Assembly: GCF_030052815.1 (NCBI RefSeq)
Contig: NC_079502.1
Coordinates: 7,282,103 to 7,346,102 of the forward strand
Origin: Hevea brasiliensis
Taxonomy: Eukaryota; Streptophyta; Magnoliopsida; Malpighiales; Euphorbiaceae
Length of the DNA stretch: 64,000 nucleotides
Direction: 5' to 3'
Made by a program: the position numbers and the translations under genes. The notes under the pieces were generated by a model. The model worked only from the letters and a program-made list of their open reading frames with translations, was not told the DNA's origin and searched no databases. Of this stretch, positions 4,640 through 64,000 are shown one piece after another; position 1 is the stretch's first letter; each line of letters opens with the position of its first letter.

Positions 4640-6057
4640 TTAATTTTTTTTTTTTACATTTCAATTCAAAAGAAAGTTTATTATTACAAGTTAGTCCTTA
4701 GTTGTTACTCATGATTGAGTCTTCCTGTCTCTCTCCTCTACGTCATAAAAAATGCTCACTTTTGATAAATATTTTTTCCCTCACCCCCTTTTGATAATTT
4801 AATTTTTAAATTACCCTGTTTAGATAATTTTCCCTGGTTTTCTGCATGAAATTTCTTTTTTATTTTAATTTATTAATATATAATATAAATTTATTTATAA
4901 AAAAAATAAAATATAATTATAAATATAAGTTTCAAACATAATTTTAATAATCTATTTACATTTTTTTATTAAAATTATAATATTTAAATACATAATTATA
5001 TAAAAATAAATTATTTTTTAATAAAAAAAATAATGTGTTATCGTACAGGGAGTTATGAAGATTCTATGCATCCATTCTGCCCGACACAATATGGAGGCCG
5101 AGAAAATATATCAAATTTAGGAAGGGTCGAATTGATTCGAAAATTTTTGTTATCCTTATCTATCAGACAGATTTCACAATAGACGATATATATTCGAGTA
5201 TATCTCCTTCCTCTCAATCAAAATCCCTATCTTCATCATTACTCATTACTTGCAAGGATGATTCGACGCGGCCACAGGCTGGTCCAAACTGTGAATTAGA
5301 CTGGATCAACAGATTCATGAATTGGCCTAGAACTAGGGCATAGGGGCTGATTACAGTTCAAAGAAAATACATTCTGCCTTCTTGTCTATAATGGAATTTA
5401 ACAAATTTTCATATTTCAAAGTCAAAGATGTGGGCTACTTAAAGTCCTTGCCTTCTAAAAACTGCAGACAGATTGCTACCAACTATTAGCTTGAAAATTC
5501 ATCTCAAAGCCTCCCTATTCATCACTTTCATCTCCAATTCCATGTTGACTCCAAACAAAATGACGCCGAATTTTATTACTTGCTGATCTTTACAGTCCTT
5601 CAACGGTACCCTTTTCCAGGTTTTTGTTTCTTTTTTATTTTAGTGAATTTCTCTTAATTATCTTCTTAAAATCTTTGATGATTGTTTTAGCTTCTAGGTT
5701 TTTGGTTAGCCTGGCGTTTGTTAACCCAGCTTCTCCTAAAACCTCCTCCACTTCCTCTTCTTCTTCTTGTTTTCAGATTTTATATAACATTTATGGCGTT
5801 CTTATGATGCTTCTTTAAATAGAAAAACACTTTCATAGCTATATGTCCTGCTACTGAAAGGATCAAGCTTTTCTTTTTCTTGGGTTTAGCCTTTTGGGTG
5901 GATAATTTGATTGAATTCTCTTTTCTTCTTGAAGTTTGTGGAGTTTGGTGTATATTCCATCAAAGTTGAGCTTGGGTTAGTCTTTCAACAAAAAAACGAG
6001 ATTCAGAGAAGTAAGCAATTCAAGATTTGATATATTTCACTACAACATTCTTGAAAA
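4640..6057. other. Spacer and upstream region of the PBL-like gene
   Basis: AT-rich up to about 5040, then more balanced sequence leading to the kinase gene. Positions about 5363-5510 are related to about 8450-8692, upstream of the LysM-WAK gene (separate entry). Pyrimidine-rich sequence at 5600-5960 probably holds the 5' untranslated region; a short open frame at 5624-5818 has no recognisable protein features. Confidence 0.45.
5363..5510 (+). repeat. Copy 1 of the sequence block shared by two kinase upstream regions
   Basis: This segment (acattctgcctt ... gtctataatgg ... gatgtgggctact ... acagattgctacc ... ttagct) matches about 8450-8692 with scattered substitutions. The later copy has about 60 extra bases before 'cagattgctacc'. 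Part of the shared sequence is also the right arm of the 8142-8548 foldback, so this may be a decayed copy of the same mobile element plus flank. Confidence 0.7.
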
Positions 6058-7657
6058 ATGAGTTGTTTTTCTTGCTTCTCCTCTCATGACAAGAAAACAG
6101 CTAAAAGGTCAAGTAGCAGCAAAAGATCACGGCCACAGCCACCCATCTCTCCTCCTCATAAAAAAGAAAACAATATTGCAGCACCGCCACGGCCTGCTGG
6201 TAAGTATCTTTATGGGTTACCGAATCAAACAAAGCTAGAATTTGTGCAGGTTGTTGATCAAATCCACAGACTCGGTGTACCAATTAAGCTAGCTCCAATT
6301 ATGGTTACATGCATGCCTTAATTTCACAGTGATCAATCTTTTCTTGTTGGAAAGGCGTTATTATTAATTATTTGTTTGTGCAGAGAATCCTAAACCAAAG
6401 CCCCAAGCTGAACCAAATACCAATATGGAAGCCACCCATAATAACAACAGCAAGGAAGGTGGCAACAACAATATCACAGCACAGACTTTTACATTCCGTG
6501 AACTAGCCACAGCTACAAAGAATTTCCGACAAGAATGTCTAACTGGTGAAGGAGGGTTTGAAAGAGTTTACAAGGGAAAACTTGGGAAGACCAACCAGGT
6601 AAATTAATAATGAACACTCTTTTCTTCATGTCTATTCTTTGATACTCGTCCTGATGGTTTCTAATTTAATTCAGGTAGTGGCTGTGAAGCAACTTGATAG
6701 AAATGGGCTGCAAGGAAATAGAGAATTTCTTGTAGAGGTGTTGATGTTGAGTCTCTTGCACCATCAGAATCTTATAAATCTTATTGGATATTGTACTGAT
6801 GGAGATCAAAGACTTCTGGTATACGAGTACATGGCTTCTGGATCTCTTGAAGACCATCTATTATTAGGTACATATGATAAACCTTTATATATGTATATAT
6901 TAATTAGTTAGAATTATCTTGAATTATAATGATGTACTGTTTCATTTGATTTTCAGAACTTCCACCAGAGCAAAAGCCATTAGATTGGTTCACAAGAATG
7001 AAAATAGCATTAGGTGCTGCTAAAGGACTAGAGTATTTGCACAATAAGGCTAATCCCCCTGTGATATATCGGAACCTGAAACCATCAAAAATTTTGCTGG
7101 ACGAGGAATTTAATGCAAAACTGTCCGATTTCGGGCTAGCCAAGCTGGGACCTACAGGGGATAGAAAACATATTTCTGCAAGAGTAATGGGAACATATGG
7201 TTACTGTGCTCCAGAGTACCAAAGAACAGGCCAATTGAGTGTTAAATCAGATGTATACAGCTTCGGAGTTGTTTTACTGGAGTTGATTACAGGAAGAAGA
7301 GCCATTGACATCACCAAACCAACCGAGGAGCAAAATCTTGTCGCCTGGGTAACTAAGCACACTCATTTTTCTCTTTCTTTAGCTTGCAAGTGCTTTTCGA
7401 TTAGAAGTTATGTAATTTATTTTCCTGAACAGGCACAACCAGTGTTCAAGGATCCAAATAGATACCCAGAACTTGCTGATCCACTTCTTCGTGGAGAATT
7501 CCCAGTTAGGGCCCTAAATCAAGCAGTTGCAGTGGCTGCAATGTGTCTACAAGAGGAAGCAGGAGTTCGGCCATTGATGAGCGATGTAGTTAGAGCTCTG
7601 AGTTTCCCTGGAGGAGTTCCAGAAGCAGGCGCTGTTACACATGACAGTGGGGTATGA
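6058..7657 (+). CDS. RLCK-VII / PBL-type cytoplasmic kinase, probably a pseudokinase or decaying copy
   Basis: Five coding exons: 6058-6199, 6384-6598, 6675-6867, 6957-7348, 7433-7657, giving 388 residues. The protein has a Cys-rich, Lys/Ser-rich N-terminus and one kinase domain (about 85-370) closest to Arabidopsis PBL5-7-type receptor-like cytoplasmic kinases, which relay immune-receptor signals at the plasma membrane. VAVK (Lys124), DFG (241-243) and the [10 protein letters not shown] activation-loop end are intact. The P-loop reads GEGGFER (Glu107 for Gly), the catalytic loop reads YRNLKPSK (Asn223 for Asp, Lys228 for Asn), and the N-terminus reads MSCFSCF where family members often carry a myristoylated Gly2. 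After the stop, the -1 frame continues with DREVAEAIEW and ends at about 7759, so an extra base near 7648-7651 probably shortened the tail. Catalysis is unlikely; a scaffold role or pseudogene status are both possible. Confidence 0.85.
7349..7432 (+). other. 84-nt in-frame open intron of the PBL-like gene
   Basis: The borders are gcctgg|gtaact and gaacag|gcacaa. Joining restores the family sequence [13 protein letters not shown], so this is an intron. Its length is 28 codons with no stop, so retention would insert 28 residues without breaking the frame. Confidence 0.8.
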
Positions 7658-8141
7658 CAAAGACAGCACTCGAGACCGAGAAGTGGCAGAAGCCATAGAA
7701 TGGGACTCAAATTCAAGGCTTGCAGTGTCAAGGAGTGGAAGTGCTTCTTCATTGTAATATATCATCTGTTGCATATATACATGTAAATGGTTATGAATGG
7801 AGATGGGTTTTCTCTGGAGACATTTTATATTGTTCTATATAAACCCAATCTAGATTGAGAAAAGCTACTATGTCGTGCCCTTCATGTTATCCTCAAGGCA
7901 CCAATATGAGACCCTCATCATCATGTTAAATCTGTCATTGCCTCTTATAAAGCACAATTTTCTGCAAGCACGAAAGTCATCAAGCTTCCTACAATCAATC
8001 ACTCATGAAGATCCAGTCCTATGGCATTACCAATAGTTGTTAAGAGCTGACCAATTTATTTCACTGAAATTTTGCTTTCACTAATCATCTCTCCCTGGTC
8101 AGGTCAAATGATACATCATTTGAATATATATATATATATAT
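7658..8141 (+). other. 3' end of the PBL-like gene and spacer
   Basis: Positions 7658-7759 still look coding in another frame (see the kinase entry) and then become the 3' untranslated region. The rest has no gene that I can see; a short TA run lies at about 8124-8142. Confidence 0.5.
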
Positions 8142-8548
8142 AGACTTTGAGTAGCCCACGTCTTGGACTTTGAAATATTAAAATTTGTTAAAGTCCAGCA
8201 TAGACAACAAGGCAGAATGTATTTTATTTATTTTCTTTCTTTGAATAAATATTTTCAAGATTGAGACTGCAGTGATTATATATATATATATATATAATCA
8301 CTGCAGTCTCAATCTTGAAAATATTTATTCAAAGAAAGAAAATATTAAAATATATATTTGAAATATTAAAATTTGTTAAAGTCCATTATATATATATATA
8401 TATAATCACCAGTGCATAGTGCAGTCTCAATCTTGAAAATATTTGTTCAAAGAAAGAAAATAAATAAAATACATTCTGCCTTGTTGTCTATAATGGACTT
8501 TAACAAATTTTAATATTTCAAAGTCCAAGATGTGGGCTACTCAAAGTC
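8142..8548. mobile_element. Long foldback (inverted-repeat) element
   Basis: The left arm, 8142-8278, is the reverse complement of about 8400-8548 with only small differences. Both outer ends read gactttgagtagccca when taken inward. A perfect TA-centred palindrome of about 65 bp per arm lies around 8287, and a second partial copy of the arm is nested at about 8290-8400. There is no coding capacity. It looks like a MITE or foldback element with an internal rearrangement. It lies between the kinase and receptor genes. Confidence 0.8.
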
Positions 8549-8692
8549 CATGCCTCCTTAAAACTGAAGATACGTATTGAAATTGGTCAGTGATCCATTT
8601 CTGTGTTGTCATTAATCCATGTATACATGTGTTTTATCTAAAAAAAAAAAATACAGATTGCTACCGATTATTAGCTGGAAGATTCATCCCAG
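8450..8692 (+). repeat. Copy 2 of the sequence block shared by two kinase upstream regions
   Basis: Related to 5363-5510 upstream of the PBL-like gene. It overlaps the right arm of the foldback element, continues past its end (acagattgctacc ... attagctgg ... attcatccca), and stops about 45 bp before the TATA box of the receptor gene. Confidence 0.7.
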
Positions 8693-8737: not shown

Positions 8738-8745
8738 TATAAAAG
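8738..8745 (+). promoter_or_regulatory. Probable TATA box of the LysM-WAK receptor gene
   Basis: TATAAAAG lies 47 bases upstream of the ATG at 8785. Plant initiation typically falls about 30 bases after a TATA box, which predicts a very short leader of roughly 15-20 bases. Confidence 0.6.
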
Positions 8746-8784: not shown

Positions 8785-10887
8785 ATGGCCACGGAGACAT
8801 CATCATCATTATACTGCCTTTTCATCTTCCACCTCTTTCTGTTCATAGTTCATCAACCATCAAATTGCCAACAAGAATATCTAAACAATACCCAGTTGAA
8901 CTGCGATCAAAACCCTTCCATTTCTAAAGGGTATCTTTGCAATGGCAATCAAATGCCATGCCAGTCCTTTCTAACCTTTTTTTCCCGCCCACCCTTTGAC
9001 TTCCCCATTTCCATTGCTTACCTCTTAGGTTCAGAAGCCTCAAGTATAGCCTTGATCAACAACATATCAGTCAATGACAGAATTCCCCCAGAGAAATCTA
9101 TCATAGTTCCTGTTTCTTGTTCATGTACAGGTAGCATTTACCAGCATAATACACCTTACACCATTAAAAGTACAGAAACCTATTTTAGTATAGCAAATGA
9201 CACTTACCAAGGCCTGACTACTTGCCAGGCCCTAATGGGTCAAAACTACTATGACCCCCAAAATCTTCAGGTGGGAACAGAGCTGATGGTTCCACTAAGA
9301 TGTGCTTGTCCAAGTCAAAACCAAACAGAAAATGGAGTGATCTCCTTGTTGATGTATATGGTGACATGGGGAGATTCGATCACATCAATTGCGAATGATT
9401 TTGGGGCCGATGTAGAAAGTATACTTACAGCCAACAGATTGCCACAGAACGGCGTGATCTTTCCCATCACTCCTATATTGGTTCCACTTAAAAGCGATAG
9501 TTGCAAGGTTAATCCAGGAGGGAAGTTCTTTTGCCACTGTCCTAACGGCTATCTTGCAGATGGAGCAGAAGGTCTTAATTGCAGACCAGAGAGTAAAAAG
9601 TTTCCTGTCAAATTGGTTACAGTGTTAGGTATGTCTCTCTCTTTCTTCTTTTTTCACCCAATTTGATTATCATATCCAGCAATTTGTTTATATTGGATCA
9701 CCCATCTATCTACTCCAGGCATCAGCATTGGTATCGGACTGCTATGTTTATTCCTTTTCAGTTACAAGTTATACAAATTCCTAAAGAATAGAAGACACAG
9801 AATTCGTAAAGACAGATTCTTCGAGCGAAATGGTGGCTTCTTGTTGCAACAAAGGCTCTCATATTTTGGAAGAGATAAAAAGTCAAATCTATTTACTGAA
9901 GAGGAGCTGCAACGAGCTACTGACAACTACAACCAGAGTAGATTTCTTGGCCAGGGAGGCTATGGAACTGTATACAAAGGGATGCTACCAGATGGTACCA
10001 TAGTTGCTGTTAAAAGATCAAAAACTATTGACAGAACCCAAATTGAACAATTTATAAATGAGGTTGTGATTCTATCCCAGATAAATCATCGAAACATTGT
10101 GAAGCTTCTTGGTTGTTGTTTGGAAACTGAGTTTCCATTGCTAGTTTATGAGTTCATTTCTAATGGAAACCTTTCCCATCATATTCATGAGCAAGACCAT
10201 GAATCTTCGCTTCCATGGGAGCATCGCTTAAGAATTGCAAGTGAAGTAGCTGGAGCAATAGCATATATGCATTCTGCAGCTTCATCCCCAATCTTCCATA
10301 GAGATATCAAACCTTCAAACATACTCCTAGATGATAAATATGGCGCAAAAATATCAGATTTTGGGACTTCAAGATCAATCCCATTAGACAGAACTCACCT
10401 GACCACTGCAGTACAGGGAACCTTTGGTTACCTAGATCCTGAATACTTCCACACAAGTCAATTCACAGAAAAAAGTGATGTGTACAGTTTTGGGGTTGTG
10501 CTAATAGAACTCCTAGCAGGGGAAAAACCTATCTCTTCTGCCAGATCTGAAGATGAGAGAAACCTTGTAGCACATTTCATATCATCGACAAAGGAGGATC
10601 GCCTTCTAGAAATTTTAGATCCTCGAGTTGCCAAAGAAGGAAGGAAAGAAGATGTTCATGCCATTGCAAAGCTTGCAGTGAGATGTTTGAGATTGAATGG
10701 GAAAAAGAGGCCTACAATGAGAGAAGTAGCAATGGAGCTGGATGGATTGAGGAAGTCTCAAAATTGCATACAAATTGATCAACAGCCTGGGTTGCTGAAA
10801 GATGAAGCATCCCTCATGCACCCTATTGGTGAGCCAGGACAGGACAACATTACCTTTTCCTTGGAAATGGAATCTACCACTTTCTAG
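8785..10887 (+). CDS. Chimeric receptor kinase: three-LysM (LYK4/5-like) ectodomain fused to a WAK-type kinase
   Basis: Two exons, 8785-9628 and 9719-10887, encode 670 residues. Residues 1-28 are a signal peptide. Residues ~40-235 form a three-LysM ectodomain with the Cys-X-Cys linkers typical of LYK proteins (CSC 112-114, CAC 173-175) and LYK4/5-like wording such as [16 protein letters not shown]. Residues 240-266 ([17 protein letters not shown]...C) resemble the EGF-like tail of wall-associated kinases. A membrane segment follows at ~277-298, then WAK-type sequence ([24 protein letters not shown]) and a kinase domain with every key residue: GQGGYG 359-364, Lys380, HRD 475-477, Asn482, DFG 495-497. 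The intron is in phase 1, just before the membrane segment, and separates the two ancestral modules. Known LYK4/5 receptors bind chitin oligomers but have weak or dead kinases; this one should be active. Its ligand is unknown. Confidence 0.93.
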
Positions 10888-11100: not shown

Positions 11101-12093
11101 GATATGTATGAAGGAGCAACTACTATTGTGCGTACAGTGGGAGGGGACACAAGAGATTTTCCGATCTCAATTGGATTACACCAAGGATCAGCCATAAGCC
11201 CTTACCTTTTTACATTAGTTTTAGATGAATTGATGAAATATATACAAGAGAGTATTCCTTGGTGCATGATGTTTGCGAATGATATTATTCTGATTAATGA
11301 GACACGAGAAGGAGTTAATAGAAAACTAGAAAGCTAGAGCTTTGGAGAAATACTCTAGAATCAAAGGGTTTTAAGTTAAGTAGAACGAAAACAGAATACA
11401 TGCATTGCAAGTTCAGTGAAGGCCAAACGGATGATAGGGAAGGAGTTAGTTTGAATGGAGTTGTACTGTCCCAAAGTAATCACTTTAAATATCTAGGCTC
11501 AGTCATTCAAGTAGATAGGGGATGTGAGGAGGATGTTAGTCACAGGATTAAAGCCGGATGGTTAAAGTGGAGACGTGGCACGGGAGTTTTTTGTGATCGC
11601 AAGATTCCCAATAAGTTGAATAAGTTGAAAGGAAAATTTTACCGTACAGCCATACGACCGGCTATGTTATATGGTAGTGAGTGTTGGATATTGAAAGAGT
11701 CGTATGCGTCTAAGATAAGAGTTGCAGAGATGAGAATGTTAAGGTGGATGAGTGGCCATACTAGACTAGATAAAGTCCGTAATGAGAGTATTAGAGAAAA
11801 GATAGAAGTGGTGCCAATTGAAGATAAGTTGAGAGAAAGAAGATTGAGGTGGTTTGGTCATGTGAAGCGTAAACATACGAAGGCTCCAGTTAGACAAGTA
11901 GAGCACATTAGGTTAGAGGATAGAAAGAAAAAAGGGGTAGACCTAAATTGACTTGGAGGAGAGTAGTACAATATGATCTAGAATGATCTAGAAGCATTAC
12001 ATATTTTCTGAGGATTTAACCCAAAATGGAGAAAGCGAATCCATATAGCCACTCTAAATTTTTTGAATAAAAGCTTAGTTGAGTTGAGTTGAG
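11101..12093 (+). mobile_element. 5'-truncated RTE-type LINE insertion with decayed reverse transcriptase
   Basis: Translation of 11104-11337 gives the late part of a reverse transcriptase (GLHQGSAISPYLFTLVLDEL, then FANDIILINET where active copies have FADD). After a frame break, 11400-11951 continues with the thumb/C-terminal region (YLGSVIQ, AMLYGSECW, RLRWFGHVKR). The insertion ends in a (TTGAG)n tail at about 12077-12093. The 16-bp sequence TTCTCTTTGTTCATGA flanks it at 11085-11100 and 12094-12109, an exact target-site duplication. The YADD-type aspartate change (N) and the frame breaks show it is dead. It inserted downstream of the receptor gene in the same orientation. Confidence 0.92.
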
Positions 12094-63162: not shown

Positions 63163-64000
63163 GTAAATTTTTGCAAGTTTATTTCTGAATGACTAAATTT
63201 CTCACTGATCAATCATATACTGCCTGTAATATGGATGAAACTTCTTTTAGCATAGTGTGGTGAACATAGAAAGTGCTTAATTTGCCACTGAAGCTTTATG
63301 GAGTTCAAGTTTTACTGAGATTAATATAATCATTTTGTTTGGAAGACTTAGTGAATAAATAGAAGTATACGCAGCAAAAAGAATGCAAGGAGCATTTTTT
63401 TTTGGAATTTTGGAGTCGGCAAACTTCATGAATCTTGTTTTCTGGAAAACTTCTGAATCATTATAAATTAAGTTTTATTTGCTACTTGGTTACACACATT
63501 AAAATAGGTAACCTACCCTCAGTGAGAAGGATAGTTATGAAGACTGTTGTTCTGAGTAGAACAGTCAAAAGTTTCTTACTTTTTCTCCATCAATTATGTA
63601 GGAAGAATATGAAAGCTTTAAGTTACAGTTGAATTTTAGAGTTTTATCTTACCATCCCAGATTAAAATCTTGGTTTTGTGATAACCAATTTTGTCCAGCT
63701 TCAGGATAAGATTTACAAGACATCCTAAAATTTTACACTCTTAATTGTGAGGTAAAAAACTTTAAATTTTCACTTTCCAAAAATGCCTTTCCGCCTCCTC
63801 AAATTTCTGGTTATAGATCCACTAAGAAGGTGGGCAGCAATCAGCATTAACCAAATAAGCTGGTATAGGTAAACCCAAAGGCTGCTTCTGTCTCTGTCAG
63901 GGGAGATGCCAACCATCTCTTCTTTCTATTGACCAAAAATTCTATCCACATATGGATGTGTGCTTGGTTTGACAGTCCAAGACTTAAACAACTAACAAAA
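63163..64000 (+). other. Intron of the NPH3-like gene, running off the window
   Basis: The sequence after the donor at 63163 has no exon that would continue HK-FPLVSRSG as expected for the family, so this intron is at least 838 bases long. Confidence 0.7.

Follow-up and report, generated by a model that had tools for sequence, protein, structure and literature searches.

A LysM-III receptor kinase gene of Hevea brasiliensis, with a LYK4/5-type ectodomain on a predicted active WAK-type kinase, in a group that appears to be older than the rosids

The LysM-III group of receptor kinases, with LjLYS20/21 and MtLYR5/6, was explained by the fusion of a Group II LysM triplet with the kinase of another family, and it was reported only from rosids (Richards and Rose 2019, PMC6625017). 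In the available text of a second paper, which cites Arrighi 2006, the group is named LYRIV, and its kinase is placed close to those of the WAKs (Buendia et al. 2018, PMC6207691). No function is given for any LysM-III member in the available text of these two papers, and Hevea is not mentioned in the main text of PMC6625017. In the open-licence literature, no further paper on the group was recognised, which is weak evidence that the wider range presented below is unpublished. For cotton, the available part of a review describes that GhWAK7A acts with GhLYK5 and GhCERK1 in chitin sensing, as separate proteins (PMC8003243).

For Hevea brasiliensis, a gene was identified in a window of 64,000 nucleotides, the whole stretch of DNA analysed, to which all positions refer. 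The gene comprises positions 8785-9628 and 9719-10887 (+), and the spliced frame encodes 670 amino acids, identical in every letter to the annotated Hevea protein P3X46_017898 (P0001). It belongs to the published LysM-III (Group III, LYRIV) group, and its architecture is not new. The original prediction had left open whether the LysM-WAK combination had been described; it had been, as LysM-III (PMC6625017) and LYRIV (PMC6207691). The following features were assigned:

8738..8745 (+), candidate TATA box TATAAAAG, about 40 nt upstream of the ATG, read from the sequence only
8785..9628 (+), exon 1, 844 nt, with signal peptide, three LysMs, half-EGF tail and the start of the membrane span (ATG at 8785, GT donor at 9629, product equal to P3X46_017898)
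8785..8868 (+), putative signal peptide, residues 1-28 (hydrophobic N-terminus before QQEYLNN; the solved chain 9gxf of CHIP13 starts at the matching QQEYLNN)
8959..9129 (+), LysM1, LysM1_NFP_LYK, residues 59-115 (PF23446, E 1.1e-23)
9118-9126 (+), CSC linker, residues 112-114, at the end of LysM1, read from the translation
9139..9300 (+), LysM2, LysM2_CERK1_LYK3_4_5, residues 119-172 (PF23472, E 6.9e-27)
9301-9309 (+), CAC linker, residues 173-175, directly after LysM2, read from the translation
9346..9489 (+), LysM3, LysM3_LYK4_5, residues 188-235 (PF23473, E 9.1e-19)
9502..9582 (+), C-terminal half of a WAK-type EGF-like domain, residues 240-266, four Cys, C..CxC..C (pattern in 102 of 119 fusions, tail-profile matches in WAKs)
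9629..9718 (+), intron, 90 nt, GT..AG, phase 1, inside codon 282 (sequence; the kinase-only ORF P0182 reads up through apparently the same acceptor)
9719..10887 (+), exon 2, 1169 nt including the stop, with the remaining membrane span, juxtamembrane region, kinase and C-terminal tail (sequence)
9829..9861 (+), WAK-type juxtamembrane motif, residues 319-329 (NGG[FLYMIV]L in fusions and WAKs)
9928..10728 (+), WAK-type protein kinase, RD type, predicted active, residues 352-618 (PF00069, E 1.6e-51; catalytic residues; groups with WAK kinases)

By frame and annotation, 9629-9718 is the single intron, which gives the two-exon structure of LysM-III / LYRIV. For the splice itself, the support comes from the continuous reading frame, from the annotation and from relatives. 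P0009 and P0085, from 'lgn' contigs of 2188 and 2660 nt that are probably transcripts, encode 673 and 695 amino acids, both with LysMs and a kinase. Phase 1 of the intron had been predicted correctly, and its position was corrected: it had been placed just before the membrane span, while codon 282 is already among the opening residues of the hydrophobic span.

In the surroundings of the gene, an apparent receptor-like cytoplasmic kinase was recognised by eye on the same strand upstream, at 6055-7657 (partial Pkinase match, ORF 6950-7654). A near-perfect inverted repeat is present at 8140-8551, with arms of 132 nt (8140-8271 and 8420-8551, 96%) and a 61-nt palindrome inside; lying in the promoter region about 230 bp upstream of the ATG, it looks like a MITE. 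Just 3' of the gene, 11101-11951 reads by eye like a degenerate non-LTR retrotransposon reverse transcriptase, and ORF 11322-11948 within this stretch gave no Pfam match. A U6atac minor spliceosomal snRNA was identified at 63799-63935 (-), with 55.5 bits against a cut-off of 33.

For the ectodomain, the LYK4/5-like module of three LysMs with CSC and CAC linkers was recovered as predicted, by the Pfam LYK4/5 profiles and by the linkers at 112-114 and 173-175. The closest sequence matches of the ectodomain were Lotus CHIP13 (9gxf, 7.7e-63) and then Medicago LYR4 (9gxz, 1.1e-58). An AlphaFold2 model, run on a 48-row alignment, reached a mean pLDDT of 79.4 and a pTM of 0.53, at which the placement of domains relative to each other means little; the LysM triplet and the larger part of the kinase were modelled with high confidence, and pLDDT stayed under 50 in most of 239-272 and in 499-516 of the kinase. 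In a fold search with this model, CHIP13 with chitooctaose (9q83) was matched with a TM of 0.91 by target length, an rmsd of 1.4 and 52% identity; over the CHIP13 structures, alone or with chitooctaose, the values were 0.88-0.92 by target length, 1.3-1.4 and 52-53%. Medicago LYR4 followed the same fold with a TM of 0.92, an rmsd of 3.0 and 46% identity. With the whole model, the top matches were kinases, FERONIA first.

Protein searches gave the best 120 of 409, the best 120 of 7974 and the best 120 of 7946 matches above threshold. Of the 193 retrieved proteins, 119, counting that of Hevea, combine a LysM match with a near-full WAK-type kinase, and a chance origin of the domain combination is therefore out of the question. 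Here, a fusion is defined by a LysM match and a kinase more than 60% identical to that of Hevea, which holds for 118 rows; P0029 was added after its placement in the tree, giving 119. LYK4/5 and WAK are set labels assigned in this analysis. Among the 45 WAK rows, 21 contain GUB_WAK_bind and 25 contain EGF_CA, and one is Macadamia P0104, which also has LysMs.

In a LysM tree of 134 rows, one clade (100/97) united the 108 fusions with 17 unlabelled rows, most of them models whose kinase is short or missing; this clade adjoins LYK4/5 of Proteales and Tetracentron (93/90). Of the LYK/LYR kinases, the kinase trees covered the LYK4/5 type only (6 rows) and no Group I LYK kinase. In a quick kinase tree of 174 rows, all fusions were located on one side of a branch with an SH-aLRT of 92, below that tree's star. 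This side also holds five rows first labelled WAK, namely P0029 and four kinase-only ORFs, and 6 changes were needed with the initial labels. In a more careful kinase tree of 61 rows, with 26 of the 118 fusion rows and 35 WAK rows, the fusions formed one clade (100/92), whose nearest neighbour was a clade of 15 WAK rows. Since there is a single fusion clade in both the LysM and the kinase tree, it is shown that one LYK4/5-type ectodomain joined one WAK kinase once and that both halves trace to a single fusion event. Lotus P0073 ('LysM type receptor kinase', 678 amino acids) is found inside the fusion clade; no row is named as Medicago. Separate phylogenies of the two parts, as proposed with the original prediction, thus place the LysMs with LYK4/5 and the kinase with WAKs, and the same domain order was found in 118 further fusion proteins among the matches listed.

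A misreading of two adjacent genes as one, by assembly or annotation, is an extremely unlikely source of the Hevea gene. Such a model may exist elsewhere: Macadamia integrifolia P0104, a model of 913 amino acids, carries a whole WAK, with galacturonan-binding, EGF-like and kinase parts, behind a LysM triplet of the LYK4/5 type. However, the same two modules are found in 119 fusion proteins, the LysM and the kinase halves each give a single fusion clade, and the Hevea product was annotated by others as one protein. With 118 other fusion proteins among those retrieved, and homologues in many genomes, the assembly error that had been named as a refutation of the original prediction is excluded. 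P0104 itself was not accepted as a group member, because it has kept the whole WAK ectodomain and its kinase lies outside the fusion clade. Its LysMs group with LYK4/5 of Protea and Tetracentron in the LysM tree (91/67 and 94/70), and it may be either a read-through gene model or a second, separate LysM-WAK fusion.

The Hevea kinase contains the G-loop, K380, E396, H475-R476-D477, N482 and D495-F496-G497. Identity to this kinase is 64-86% for the 118 fusions, 56.5% for P0029, 53-68% for the 45 WAK rows and 32-37% for the 6 LYK4/5 rows. Counted on near-full kinase rows only, with truncated kinases left out, the VAIK Lys, the alpha-C Glu, His-Arg-Asp and the catalytic-loop Lys and Asn are present in all 119 fusions. 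The DFG Asp is found in 117 of 119 (one gap and one Glu in the others), and the xPE Glu in 108 of 119 (seven gaps and four other letters in the remaining 11). In contrast, all six LYK4/5-type kinases show Asn in place of the DFG Asp and Lys in place of the HRD Arg, the first three glycines of the G-loop are gaps in all six, and in four of them Asn replaces the HRD Asp; the VAIK Lys and the alpha-C Glu are kept in all six. Judged from these residues, the fused kinase is predicted to be active. Both expectations held on this point: the WAK kinase is catalytically complete, with every residue checked present and a position among WAKs in the trees, and the LYK4/5 kinases look weak or dead, as the six compared lack the DFG Asp and the three G-loop glycines.

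Between LysM3 and the membrane span, a C..CxC..C tail was identified in 102 of 119 fusions by a relaxed pattern and in 88 of 119 by a stricter one. Among the 17 fusions that do not fit the relaxed pattern are several truncated models, the protein of Liquidambar and P0018 (P3X46_017488), a second LysM-III copy in Hevea. P0018 is listed with a contig as long as that of the first copy, and its stalk has Asn-rich repeats, as in a Manihot relative, P0105. At E values up to 10, a profile of the tail gave 18 matching stretches for the 45 WAKs, 23 for 900 shuffled sequences and none for the 6 LYK4/5 proteins. Four of the 45 WAKs (16.4, 14.3, 13.6 and, barely, 7.6) scored above the best shuffle, at 7.2. 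The WAK matches lie in the last EGF, directly ahead of the membrane span, and the relation of the tail to EGF rests on the three clear matches and on this position. The stalks of all six LYK4/5 proteins are proline-rich and lack the tail pattern. The juxtamembrane motif NGG[FLYMIV]L was found in 107 of 119 fusions, in 35 of 45 WAK rows and in none of the 6 LYK4/5 proteins. Because the tail matches the last EGF of WAKs and is followed by a WAK juxtamembrane motif, the fusion point is most likely to be within the EGF-coding stretch of a WAK gene.

The kinase-only ORF P0182 opens with residues that look like an intron end (FFTSG) ahead of the conserved IGIG, as is the case for the Hevea intron. 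This suggests that the position of the intron is common to the Hevea gene and P0182, and the intron is likely to derive from the WAK donor. The exon-shuffling idea of the original prediction has thus gained ground, as parts of two genes were joined near an intron according to the trees, the tail pattern and the juxtamembrane motif. Its WAK-like part does begin at about residue 240. Its "EGF-type tail" is related to the WAK-type EGF, as the C-terminal half only (240-266) and not as a complete domain.

By Pfam at E 0.001, no WAK, GUB_WAK_bind or EGF domain was identified in the Hevea protein. A folded EGF domain in the stalk is not supported, on this ground and by the pLDDT below 50 for most of the tail in the AlphaFold2 model. 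The same observations bear on the view that the protein is essentially a WAK, sensing pectin or the integrity of the wall with the LysMs incidental. Its kinase and juxtamembrane region are indeed of the WAK type, but with the WAK, GUB_WAK_bind and EGF domains not found at that threshold, and with half an EGF predicted to be mostly unstructured, this view is very improbable.

Four of the 119 fusions come from named non-rosid species, Nepenthes gracilis (Caryophyllales), Bertholletia excelsa (Ericales), Liquidambar formosana (Saxifragales) and Orobanche minor (Lamiales). The NCBI lineage is Pentapetalae for all non-rosid member species, and these lineages are grouped as superrosids and superasterids. 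Colocasia P0064, Tetracentron P0113 and Protea P0115 were rejected as non-rosid members, since their kinases are of the LYK4/5 type (34-37% identity).

In a 45-row tree of LysM and kinase together, the root was placed by choice on Nepenthes and Bertholletia (99/92). The branch of Liquidambar and P0009 came next (97/84), and then the rosids including Orobanche (100/99). Within the rosids, the expected groups were obtained (Myrtales; Fabales; Rosales; Malvales with Sapindales; Euphorbiaceae with Linum), with Salix separate from the other Malpighiales. Nepenthes and Bertholletia were also outermost in the LysM tree rooted on Colocasia LYK4/5, with weak forks (91/38 and 94/81), and in the WAK-rooted kinase tree, again with weak forks (88/46 and 86/76). 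The quick kinase tree left their order open but kept them outside the rosids at 96. Since the Nepenthes, Bertholletia and Liquidambar members branch outside the rosids, the fusion appears to be older than the published rosid-only origin and the group more widespread than reported. Such branching would be expected if the fusion had been inherited from a common ancestor of superrosids and superasterids. Contamination is an unlikely source of the three members, as they lie on contigs of 22, 40 and 56 Mb and branch outside the rosids. The origin would thereby be moved from the rosids back at least as far as the ancestor shared by Saxifragales, Caryophyllales and Ericales, which raises the question of whether, and for what reason, the fusion was lost elsewhere.

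The protein P0192 (OROMI_007299) of the parasitic plant Orobanche minor was placed differently: it does not group with asterids but shares a group of four rows with proteins of Trema and Morus, among the Rosales copies (100/100 in the 45-row tree). A tree joining Orobanche to Nepenthes and Bertholletia was rejected with an AU p of 4.8e-44, for a group that was chosen after the tree had been seen. The simplest reading is a horizontal transfer from a Rosales plant, and the Orobanche copy is a candidate for such a transfer from a host. Contamination is unlikely here as well, given a contig of 110 Mb, though less surely than for the other three.

The most likely function of the Hevea protein is that of a predicted receptor for GlcNAc oligomers with an active kinase of its own. 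We consider it probable that it is a LysM-III receptor kinase of the plasma membrane with a single membrane pass, predicted to be a GlcNAc-oligomer sensor and to signal through its own kinase. The LysM triplet would bind a GlcNAc oligomer, chitin or a related molecule, and a CERK1-type partner would probably take part in ligand binding. By sequence, the LYK4/5-type ectodomain is connected, by way of the WAK-type half EGF, to the membrane span, the juxtamembrane region and the complete RD kinase of a WAK. The receptor itself would phosphorylate downstream targets, whereas LYK4/5 receptors would need the kinase of a partner. A possible binding of chitin is suggested by the similarity in fold to CHIP13 with chitooctaose.

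Among 108 members, mean pairwise identity is 54% in the LysM region versus 73% in the kinase, with the LysM value lower in 5769 of 5778 pairs. Given this much stronger divergence of the LysM region, ligands may differ among members and from CHIP13. This rapid divergence would also suit an ectodomain that no longer binds chitin, in a protein acting as co-receptor, decoy or negative regulator like some LYRs. LysM receptors can be negative regulators: by its title, PMC12697376 reports negative regulation of chitin responses by grapevine VvLYK6. However, the catalytic residues are kept across the group, unlike in a decoy, and a loss of chitin binding is regarded as rather unlikely. The GlcNAc-oligomer receptor is the preferred reading. 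A self-contained chitin-type receptor is a sensible one also because LYK5-type and WAK proteins, partners in cotton, are here fused in one protein.

A wider scenario is offered tentatively: the fusion would hard-wire a LYK5-type chitin sensor to a WAK kinase, predate the split of superrosids and superasterids, have been lost in asterid lineages and have been gained later by a broomrape from Rosales. The group represents a natural domain swap, in which a type of sensor with a dead-looking kinase in its parent family was given a live-looking one from another family and retained it for a very long time. From the fusion, LYK5-type and WAK signalling are also predicted to be physically linked, in the way reported for cotton.

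Compared to the known systems, the Hevea protein shares with LysM-III / LYRIV the Group II type LysM triplet, the CxC linker between LysM1 and LysM2, the two exons, a kinase unlike that of other LysM-RLKs and close to WAKs, and the same proposed origin by fusion. Hevea itself is a rosid; the published range comprises rosids only, whereas the members identified here include Caryophyllales, Ericales and Saxifragales. In sequence, fold and the Pfam LysM3_LYK4_5 profile, the ectodomain is like that of LYK4/5 receptors, by match to Lotus CHIP13 and Medicago LYR4; the likeness to Arabidopsis LYK4/5 is by Pfam family names only. In the six LYK4/5 proteins compared, by contrast, the DFG Asp and three glycines of the G-loop are missing, and the stalk is rich in proline where the Hevea protein carries the half EGF. 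With the WAK/WAKL proteins, it has in common the kinase, the NGG-LL juxtamembrane region and the final half of the membrane-proximal EGF, but GUB_WAK_bind and a complete EGF are absent and LysMs stand in their place. In cotton, GhWAK7A and GhLYK5 are separate partners, while in Hevea LYK5-type and WAK-type modules are present in one polypeptide.
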